64,000 nucleotides of DNA from Fimbriimonadaceae bacterium. Its GTDB lineage: Bacteria; Armatimonadota; Fimbriimonadia; Fimbriimonadales; Fimbriimonadaceae. The notes beneath the pieces were generated by a model. The model saw only the letters and a program-made list of their open reading frames with translations, searched no databases and was not told where the DNA came from. Each line of letters starts with the position of its first letter. The stretch's first letter is position 1. Where the stretch lies: contig JAHCHO010000006.1 of NCBI GenBank assembly GCA_026129685.1, forward strand, positions 310,001-374,000. Reading direction: 5' to 3'. Below are positions 59,189 to 63,096 of the stretch, piece by piece. The position numbers and the translations under genes are program-made.

Positions 59189-60019
59189 CTAACCCAACCG
59201 GCGTCGGAGAGACTCAGGGGGGTTGCGCTGCTGGGCGATCGCGAGCGGCTCGACGCACACCTTCAGGGGAGTGGACGCGGCGTGAATCACCGTATGCTGA
59301 TCCAACAGCATCGCCACATGGCCGGGCCAGAAGACGAAGTCGCCCGATCGGGGCGCTGCACCCTCTGGCAACGCCTCTCCAAGGGTTGCGGCCTGCATGT
59401 CACTGTCCCGCCGCACCGGAACGCCCGCGTGGGCGAGGCACGCCTGAACCAGGGCGGAGCAGTCGATGCCGAAGCCACTGCGCCCGCCCCACCGATACGG
59501 GGTCTCGACGAAACGCCGAGCGGTGGCCAGGTAGTCGGGGTCGACGTGGTCGAGAGGCACCGCATGGGCGGTCACGATCCAACCGCCCTGGCACAACGCG
59601 GAGTACCTGTCTCGCTCCCCGACGACGCGGATCTGGCTTTGAAAGCCAAGCTCTTCGATTACGGGCGCCTTGTAGGAGGGCTCGGCGAACACCAGGGTCC
59701 GGACGGCGGCGATGCGATGGGTGGCCCCGACCACCTCCGGAGAAAGATCGTCGGTGCGCACGTAACCCACGTACCCGTCGGTCTCGTTCTGACCCCATGA
59801 CCAACCTTCGCGCTCCTCGAAGACGATGAAAACCTCGCCATAGACTAGTTGGGACGTGGCGGAGTTCTCAACGCGAGGTTCTCCTCGTACGGTAGAGACG
59901 GGCTTCACCACCTGAGTCCGTGTTCCCGCGACGAAGCGGTCAGACGGGACGCGACCCCGCAACGTCTCGCCCGCCAAATCGGCGCGGTACGGGTGGAGGC
60001 GGGGATCGAGGTCGCTCAT
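59189..60019 (-). CDS. NlpC/P60 endopeptidase with SH3-type domains
   Basis: Peptidoglycan hydrolase that cleaves gamma-D-Glu-diamino-acid links. The 276-residue protein has two bacterial SH3b-like segments (about 35-150) and the C-terminal NlpC/P60 domain: [18 protein letters not shown] (catalytic Cys), then [12 protein letters not shown] (His) and VIHAAST (third residue). The ATG overlaps rfbA (ATGA). A longer frame to 60232 is inside rfbA. I see no signal peptide at the chosen start, so the enzyme may be cytoplasmic (recycling of muropeptides, as in YkfC-type enzymes) or exported by another route. YkfC-like architecture fits the SH3 pair. Confidence 0.9.
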
Positions 60020-60894
60020 CGCTCGCTCAACCGTACCAGTTTGCGCAGGTACGCCTGGTAGGCGCGTCCCTTGTGCTCTTCCGCCAGGCGGGCGAACCGG
60101 GCGTCGTCCACGAAGCCCATGCGCCAAGCGACCTCCTCGACGCATCCGACCTTGAGTCCTTGTCGTTGCTCGATCGTGCCGATGAACATCGCCGCCTGCA
60201 ACAGGGATTCGGGAGTGCCGGTGTCGAGCCAAGCCACCCCCCGGCCGAAGGTTTCGACGTGCAGACTTCCCTGCTCCAGGTACCGTCGGTTCACGTCGGT
60301 GATCTCCAACTCCCCGCGCGGCGACGGCTTCAGGCTTTTCGCGATGTCCACGACCGATGCGTCATAGAAGTAGAGTCCGGTCACGGCGTAGTTCGACTTG
60401 GGGGCGGCGGGCTTTTCCTCGATCGAGACCGGTCTGCCGTCAGGACCGAACTCCACGACCCCGTACCGCTCGGGGTCGTCCACCCAGTAGGCGAACACGG
60501 TCGCCCCTTGAGTTCGCGCGGCGGCGTCCTGCAGTTGGTGGGACAGCCCTTGAGCGTAGAAGATGTTGTCGCCAAGGACCAGGGCGGACAACGATTCGCC
60601 GATAAAGGAGTCTCCGATCAGAAAGGCCTGGGCGAGACCGCCGGGCGTGGGTTGGGAACGGTACTCGAGGGCCAGCCCCCACTGCGAACCGTCGCCGAGG
60701 AGCGCCCGGAACATCGCCTGCTCATGGGGCGTCGTGATGATCAGAATCTCGCGTATCCCCGCCAACATGAGGGTGGTCAGCGGATAGTAGATCATCGGCT
60801 TGTCGTACACGGGAAGTAGTTGCTTGCTGATCACCTGGGTGACCGGATGTAACCGCGTTCCGGCTCCGCCGGCAAGGATGATCCCCTTCCTCAT
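60016..60894 (-). CDS. rfbA: Glucose-1-phosphate thymidylyltransferase
   Basis: First enzyme of the dTDP-sugar route (for example dTDP-L-rhamnose): glucose-1-phosphate plus dTTP gives dTDP-glucose. The 292-residue product has [36 protein letters not shown] at the N-terminus, then [12 protein letters not shown] and [19 protein letters not shown], with all family stretches in place. ATG 60894 overlaps rfbB by ATGA; the frame to 60966 is a shadow in rfbB. No rfbC or rfbD is present, so the final sugar is not known. It is translated between rfbB and the NlpC/P60 gene. Confidence 0.96.
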
Positions 60895-61958
60895 CGTCCT
60901 GCCCTCTCGCCGTAGTTGGCCTCGATCCAGTCGCGATAGCGTCCGCTGCGCACCGAATCCACCCACTCCGGGTTCGCCAGGTACCAGGCAACGGTCTTGC
61001 GCAAACCGGATTCAAACGTTTCCTTGGGACGCCACCCGAGTTCGGTCCGGATCTTGCTTGCGTCGATTGCGTAGCGATGGTCGTGGCCGGGCCGATCCGG
61101 AACGAAGGCGATCTGTTTCTGGATTTCTAGGAAGCTCTTGCCGGTCGCGAGGGCGACCTCGGCGCATATGGTCTTCACCACGTCGAGGTTTTGACGTTCG
61201 CAGTCGCCGCCAACGTTATAGGTTTGCCCGAGCCGACCACGAGTCGCTACCGACCAGATGGCCTCGACGTGATCGTCCACGAACAGCCAATCCCGAACGT
61301 TCGTGCCCTGACCATAAACGGGCAGGGGCTTCCCTTCCATCGCGCTCAGGATCATCAAGGGGATTAGCTTCTCCGGGAACTGGTAGGGGCCGTAGTTGTT
61401 GGAGCAGTTCGTGACCTTGACGGGCAGGCCATAGGTGTGGAAGTAGGCCCGGACCAAGTGATCGCTCGCCGCCTTGGAAGCGCTGTAGGGGCTGTGCGGG
61501 TCGTAGGGGGTGGTCTCGGAGAAGAGGCCCGTCTCACCGAGGGAACCGAACACCTCGTCGGTTCCGACGTGGTGGAAGAGTCGGTCCTCGGGATCTCCCC
61601 ATACGGCGCGGCAAGCCTCGAGAAGGTTGTAGGTGCCGACGATGTTGGTCTGAATGAAGTCGCCCGGGCCGAGGATGCTACGGTCCACGTGACTCTCGGC
61701 GGCGAAGTGAAACACCCAGTCGGGCCGGTGCACGAGGATCGCCTCGCTCGTCGCTTTGGCGTCGCGCAGGTCCGCATGCACGAAGCGGTAGTTCGGGGCC
61801 GATGCGATGGTTGCGAGGTTGCCCTGGTGCCCGGCATAGGTCAAGGCGTCCAGGTTGACCCACGCAATCTCGGGATGCTCGGGGACCAGCCTCCGGAGGA
61901 ACGCAGAGCCGATGAAGCCGCATCCACCCGTTACCAAAACCGTGCTGGGAAGCGCCAT
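60891..61958 (-). CDS. rfbB: dTDP-glucose 4,6-dehydratase
   Basis: Second enzyme of the dTDP-sugar route; it makes dTDP-4-keto-6-deoxyglucose using a bound NAD. The 355-residue protein has the Rossmann [14 protein letters not shown], the TDEVFG dehydratase motif in [15 protein letters not shown], and the catalytic YSASKAASD (YxxxK). [11 protein letters not shown] is also typical. ATG 61958 is used; TTG 61973 in frame is possible. The gap to the Pcp-TsaE gene upstream is only 48 bp, so the minus-strand genes 59189-62999 may form one operon. Confidence 0.97.
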
Positions 61959-62006: not shown

Positions 62007-62999
62007 TCAACAGGGGTCTTGCGGCGGGGGTTCCGAGGCCCCTCCAATCCTATGGACGGGGCCCTCGACCCAAAGCAAGCGTCCGTTTGCCACAGGTTTG
62101 ATCGTCACGATGCGGTCCGGGCCGATGTCTCGGAGCCGGTCGGGCCATTCGATCAGGCAGAGATGCGTATCGAGGTACCGCTCAAGGTCAATGCCTTGTT
62201 CCGACTCCACGCGGTAGAGATCGACGTGGCAGACGGGCGGATGGGTGGGAAAAGTCTGAACGAGGTTATAGGTGGGCGAGCGCACGGGTTCGGTCCAGCC
62301 CAAGCCCTCGAGCAGACCCCGTGCCAAGGTGGTCTTCCCTGCCCCGAGCGGCCCTTCGAGGGCGACGATCTCGCCCGCCCGCCACGTCTGGGCGAGCCTC
62401 GCCCCGAGTCGCCGCGTCTCGACCTCCGTTTCCAGGAGGATCGCGGAGGTCGGCATGTCGCCCTCGGACTCCACTTCGGTCAGCAACTCCGAGAAAGCGG
62501 CTAGTTGGTTGTCGAGCGGCCAGGTGGCTTCGGGCGGGACGTGGACAAATCCGATTCGACGATCGGGGAAAGCGCCCAGGGCTCGAAAGAGGGCGTAGTT
62601 GCACAGGTAATCGCCGGCGTCCACACTCACGCGCCACCGCTCGGTGTCCATCGCCAGGCGATCGATGAAGAGGTTGGCGCGACGTTGGGGCGGAGCGAAG
62701 GGGTCGATGGGGCCGGGGCCTGCGACGACGCCCGCCACATCGGGCGTCTTGCCGACGCGGTTCACGGCCCTGGACTCGAGGCGCAAGCGGGGGTCGGTCT
62801 CCCCCGCCGCAAGGCCGAGCATGAGGAGCCGGTCGAAGGAATCGGGGTCAAGGTCCGCAAGGAACGCGTCCACGGCGCAGAAGGAGACCTCAAGCACGCG
62901 ATGCGGACGACCGCTCCGCTCCGCCAGCCAAGCCGACGGGTTCCTGGCGACCCCTCCAAAGGGACCGAAACCGGTGACGATCGTGCGGGGCGGCGACAT
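62007..62999 (-). CDS. Fusion of pyroglutamyl-peptidase I and TsaE (t6A ATPase)
   Basis: One 330-residue frame carries two unrelated domains. Residues 5-175 are a C15 pyroglutamyl peptidase (removes N-terminal pyroglutamate): TGFGPFGGVARNPS, Glu75 in RLRLESRAVN, Cys133 in DAGDYLCNYALF and His153 in GFVHVPP form the catalytic triad. Residues 183-330 are TsaE, the ATPase of the TsaBDE complex that makes t6A in tRNA: Walker A GPLGAGKTTLARGL, SPTYNLVQTF, HVDLYRVES and IEWPDRLRD. An internal ATG at 62456 (Met182) with GAGG 5 nt upstream could also start TsaE alone. ATG 62999 is 13 nt after tRNA-Leu. Confidence 0.93.
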   Translation of the reverse strand: MSPPRTIVTGFGPFGGVARNPSAWLAERSGRPHRVLEVSFCAVDAFLADLDPDSFDRLLMLGLAAGETDPRLRLESRAVNRVGKTPDVAGVVAGPGPIDPFAPPQRRANLFIDRLAMDTERWRVSVDAGDYLCNYALFRALGAFPDRRIGFVHVPPEATWPLDNQLAAFSELLTEVESEGDMPTSAILLETEVETRRLGARLAQTWRAGEIVALEGPLGAGKTTLARGLLEGLGWTEPVRSPTYNLVQTFPTHPPVCHVDLYRVESEQGIDLERYLDTHLCLIEWPDRLRDIGPDRIVTIKPVANGRLLWVEGPVHRIGGASEPPPQDPC

Positions 63000-63012
63000 G
63001 GCGACGGTCAAG

Positions 63013-63096
63013 TGCCCGGGGTGGGACTCGAACCCACAAGTCCTCTCAGACTGCGGATTTTAAGTCCGCTGTGTTTACCGTTTCACCACCCGGGCA
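63013..63096 (-). tRNA. tRNA-Leu (anticodon UAA)
   Basis: 84 nt with a perfect 7-bp acceptor stem (TGCCCGG/CCGGGCA), anticodon arm GCGGA-CTTAAAA-TCCGC (anticodon TAA), a long variable arm as in leucine tRNAs and the T-arm GTGGGTTCGAGTCCCAC. CCA is not encoded. A TATACT box (63106-63111) lies 9 nt before the 5' end. The Pcp-TsaE gene starts 13 nt after its 3' end on the same strand. Confidence 0.95.

Follow-up and report, generated by a model that had tools for sequence, protein, structure and literature searches.

A 64,000-nucleotide stretch of a Fimbriimonadaceae genome (contig JAHCHO010000006.1, positions 310,001 to 374,000; referred to below as the window) contains one open reading frame, pcp-tsaE, in which a pyroglutamyl peptidase (Pcp) is followed by TsaE. 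Pcp removes N-terminal pyroglutamate (PMC11036351), and the ATPase TsaE attaches where TsaD and TsaB meet (PMC9654439; PMC11648230). The locus raises the question of whether this frame is a genuine fusion, how it came about, and whether it ties the two activities together.

Domains of the fused gene

The pcp-tsaE gene lies on the minus strand, and its frame has no internal stop across 330 amino acids (Table 1). The first half matched the Pfam family Peptidase_C15 (PF01470) over residues 6–155 (E = 3e-7; 31.1 bits against a gathering cut-off of 22.7). The second half matched TsaE (PF02367) over residues 190–301 (E = 3e-32; 111.7 bits, cut-off 26.6) and also the NCBIfam model T6A_YjeE (TIGR00150; 90.6 bits, cut-off 60.1). 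The profile matches, together with the reading frame itself, bear out the proposal of the first-pass annotation that a single uninterrupted frame joins two complete domains. Against the NCBIfam equivalog pyro_pdase (TIGR00504), the Pcp half scored 28 bits where the cut-off is 202. It is therefore a short, divergent C15 member, which does not earn the equivalog name 'pyroglutamyl peptidase I' from TIGR00504.

Table 1. Features of the pcp-tsaE locus (positions in the window)
Feature	Coordinates	Strand	Remarks
Fused gene pcp-tsaE	62007..62999	-	330 aa + stop; ATG at 62999, stop TGA 62009-62007; genome's sole C15 peptidase and sole TsaE
Pyroglutamyl peptidase (C15) domain, residues 1-178	62466..62999	-	E75 62775-62777, C133 62601-62603, H153 62541-62543
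Junction, codons 179-181 (GAG GGC GAC)	62457..62465	-	Without linker
TsaE domain, residues 182-330	62010..62456	-	Begins at Met182, the ancestral start of TsaE; Walker A GPLGAGKT 62331-62354
GAGG before internal ATG	62462..62465	-	Five bases upstream of ATG182 (62454-62456)
tRNA-Leu (TAA)	63012..63095	-	Ends 12 nt upstream of pcp-tsaE ATG
dTDP-glucose 4,6-dehydratase-like (rmlB)	60891..61958	-	Downstream, 48 nt past fusion stop
Nucleotidyl transferase (rmlA-like)	60016..60894	-	ATGA overlap with rmlB
SH3-NlpC/P60 peptidase	59189..60019	-	ATGA overlap with rmlA

The catalytic residues fall where the first-pass annotation had placed them, and E75, C133 and H153 were invariant in an alignment of 18 sequences comprising pcp-tsaE and 17 stand-alone relatives. 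The Pcp half keeps 34 of the 35 columns that are at least 90% conserved among Pcp relatives, the sole change being W111F. With the start methionine left out, 32 of 34 conserved columns are kept in the TsaE half (changes D210E and G271D), and its motifs G216–T224 (Walker A), D260–R263 (D-L-Y-R) and E284–W285 are retained. Judged from the sequence, neither half seems to be degenerating.

In an AlphaFold model that took an alignment of stand-alone relatives as input, residues 1–178 were placed mostly with pLDDT above 95, and a helix ends at residue 178. All PDB matches of the Pcp model under E 0.001 (34/34) were pyrrolidone carboxyl peptidases, and its closest solved relative is 2EBJ from Thermus thermophilus. 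The TsaE-focused model was of low confidence (mean pLDDT 55). The Pcp half has in common with pyroglutamyl peptidase I (pyrrolidone carboxyl peptidase; MEROPS C15, PF01470) the fold, the E-C-H triad and the GFGPF and CN motifs, but it is short (~178 amino acids), divergent (31 bits to Pfam) and bears TsaE at its C terminus. The TsaE half has the Walker A sequence GPLGAGKT, HVDLYR and IEWP of the TsaE/YjeE t6A ATPases (PF02367, TIGR00150). It differs from known TsaE in not being a free small protein, in having Pcp ahead of its start methionine, and in the two substitutions at conserved columns.

The source genome (G000) is assembled in 18 contigs and is 99.18% complete and 0.12% contaminated. 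A search of this genome, at that completeness, found no second C15 peptidase and no second TsaE; the sole match in each case was pcp-tsaE. TsaD, a TsaB-like gene and two TsaC/Sua5-type genes are present elsewhere. With these t6A partners present and no other TsaE, pcp-tsaE has to supply TsaE, provided that t6A synthesis follows the standard route.

Junction and surrounding locus

Most stand-alone Pcp relatives end at positions that correspond to approximately residues 173–181 of the fused protein. Met182 is at, or close to, the point where stand-alone TsaE proteins begin. By this alignment, the native Pcp end meets the native TsaE start directly, with no inserted linker.

Downstream of the fusion, the ATGA overlaps between rmlB and rmlA and between rmlA and the NlpC/P60 gene indicate that tight packing is normal in this operon. 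Upstream, the tRNA-Leu(TAA) gene has counterparts in other genera, where it is found just upstream of an unfused pcp (G010, G165, G166, G020 and G150). The fusion therefore appears to occupy an old pcp locus, and tsaE would be the newcomer.

This position of tRNA-Leu(TAA), directly upstream of pcp (12 nt in the window), is seen in several genera (loci L006, L027, L050, L051 and L134). The pcp gene may be translated from a tRNA–mRNA transcript with a very short leader, or none, after tRNA processing. Just past the end of the window lies a tmRNA gene (L042:12468-12823, plus strand; tag peptide ANTNYAYAA), near the tRNA-Leu and a PhoPQ-related gene.

Distribution of the fusion

By count from the search table, pcp was detectable in 33 of 60 relatives. 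None of the 33 gave a full-length pcp-tsaE match, both congeners (G001 and G002) included, and in the congeners pcp and tsaE are at separate, distant loci. Among the matches listed, a scan of 291 Armatimonadota genomes returned one full-length match, the source genome itself. No other pcp-tsaE fusion was found in a scan of a genome collection from which records near the window's own genome were possibly left out. Pairs of pcp and tsaE on the same contig and strand, 6–12 kb apart, occur in G019, G164, G130 and G137 (among the matches listed), and in none of the relatives were the two genes found adjacent yet unfused. A Rosetta-stone argument draws on pairs fused or adjacent in several lineages; this pair, joined in 1/291 genomes among the matches listed, does not qualify as a conserved functional fusion. 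Relatives with two separate genes only had been named beforehand as evidence against a fusion. That arrangement is indeed observed in the relatives, but the open reading frame stands, and the fusion is lineage-specific. The first-pass annotation had known of no described fusion of this pair, and we likewise found no description of one in the open-access literature searched.

Several candidates were rejected. An apparent 'split fusion' in G001, where pcp is truncated by the end of one contig and tsaE lies at the end of a second, in an orientation that would complement it, was discarded, as both contigs align at ~93% identity with G002, in which the genes are far apart. Matches in G164 (4–251) and G156 (2–241) continue beyond a stop codon, where the sequence is unrelated, and so do not represent fusions of pcp with tsaE, and a Rhodobiaceae match (L066, query 57–306) is a two-gene artefact of tblastn.

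TsaD of the source genome is ~66% identical to TsaD of its congeners, indicating that the fusion arose on a long, poorly sampled branch. TsaE of the source genome was nearer to that of G014 than to that of the congener G002; a horizontal origin of tsaE was considered on this ground but not adopted, given a TsaE tree without resolved branching. Separately, contig JADZEW010000018.1 (L061), labelled as a Methanoregulaceae archaeon, encodes the identical TsaE found in Armatimonadota genome G013 (L084), on a contig of equal length; the archaeal label looks wrong.

Probable formation of the fusion by loss of a stop codon

The most probable explanation, in which we place considerable confidence, is a lineage-specific fusion by loss of the stop codon between abutting genes, yielding a two-domain protein with independent activities whose tether is tolerated. 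As we infer the order of events, tsaE would have come to adjoin the 3′ end of pcp, itself located behind tRNA-Leu(UAA). Loss of the pcp stop codon would then have allowed translation to run from the C-terminal helix of Pcp into the former start codon of TsaE. The product would most likely be one two-domain protein of ~36 kDa. Its TsaE half would serve the TsaB–TsaD–TsaE complex and its Pcp half would remove N-terminal pyroglutamate, each presumably independent of the other, so that the tether would be tolerated rather than reflect a functional partnership.

A direct precedent makes stop-codon loss plausible. In G032, which belongs to another genus of the family (L125:2-1546, minus strand), the same Pcp family is in frame with a DAHP synthase (260 bits), whereas in its congener G156 (L130) pcp ends in TAG and the DAHP synthase gene starts ~8 nt later in another frame. 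The G032 protein resembles pcp-tsaE in having Pcp at its N terminus, joined exactly at the start methionine of the next gene; it differs in its partner, an AroG-like DAHP synthase, and in having a congener that keeps the genes separate. Long in-frame C-terminal extensions of TsaE were found in G168 (L121:282-1397, minus strand) and G171 (L128). The G168 extension had no Pfam match, and G170, a near relative of G171, is without the extension of G171. The Pcp–DAHP synthase protein and these TsaE extensions together indicate that boundary fusions with neighbouring genes recur in relatives within the Fimbriimonadaceae. In the Rhodobiaceae sequence L066, TsaE is one domain, here N-terminal, of a ~530-amino-acid protein, the partner being what we take to be a phosphotransferase.

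Possible internal initiation at Met182

One gene might also give two products, the fusion and a free TsaE initiated at Met182 that would do the essential work. Such a scheme is compatible with stop-codon loss, and the first-pass annotation had suggested it on the basis of the GAGG ahead of the internal ATG. Both the motif and ATG182 are present, the motif at the spacing given in Table 1, and Met182 aligns with the starts of stand-alone TsaE proteins, consistent with its being the ancestral TsaE start. Retention of Met182 is expected anyway after a recent fusion, however, and no stop lies close by for termination–reinitiation. Shine-Dalgarno-like tetramers precede 47 of the 330 internal in-frame ATGs in the window (14%), as against 11 of its 51 starts (22%), which were taken from a simple caller and are uncertain. 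The GAGG therefore carries little weight for internal initiation, and the argument built on it is weak; we regard a second product as possible but rather unlikely.

The rarity of Shine-Dalgarno motifs at predicted starts (11/51) also suggests that initiation in this genome is mostly Shine-Dalgarno-independent.

The possibility of an assembly error

The missing stop codon rests on the sequence of one genome. A one-base error that erased the pcp stop between two abutting genes would give the same frame, and the appearance of the fusion in one genome only, with its junction exactly at the gene boundaries, would fit such an error. One base would be enough, though only in a few ways: codons 170, 171, 172, 175, 177 and 179 are each one substitution away from a stop, so that a single substitution at any of several codons between 170 and 179 would suffice, as would an extra base near codon 173, where frame +1 has a TGA (frame +2 is stop-free between codons 50 and 244). 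Against this, codons 170–182 contain no homopolymer of more than three bases, the assembly is good by the contig number, completeness and contamination given above, and G032 independently shows the same kind of boundary fusion, which makes a natural event plausible. An error of this kind thus appears improbable, and stop-codon loss in the organism is preferred.

Proposed functional coupling and implications

The first-pass annotation had read the fusion as linking peptide salvage to t6A modification. In a coupled protein, the Pcp domain would sense or act on a peptide or a partner of TsaE, tying t6A to peptide or pyroglutamate turnover; the conservation of both active sites, the physical linkage of the pair and the presence of the genome's only TsaE in the fusion are in keeping with this. 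The pair, however, occurs in one genome, and pcp was detected in barely more than half of the relatives, in which it is unlinked to tsaE. Elsewhere Pcp is joined to DAHP synthase and TsaE carries unrelated C-terminal extensions, and no link between Pcp and TsaE was found in the open-access literature. The neighbouring tRNA offers no support either: t6A occurs on tRNAs for ANN codons, and tRNA-Leu(UAA), which reads UUA/UUG, is not a substrate. The proposed link is therefore not supported, and we consider coupling of this kind highly improbable. That the protein is bifunctional, with the Pcp domain regulating TsaE or regulated by it, so that t6A in this lineage responds to peptide or pyroglutamate turnover, is likewise highly improbable.

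The Pcp–TsaE domain pair appears to be undescribed. Since this Pcp gene has, within the family, become fused to unrelated genes downstream of it, a fusion seen in a single genome is weak evidence of a shared pathway. The fusion suggests that a t6A ATPase, although essential, can be maintained with an unrelated enzyme attached to its N terminus.
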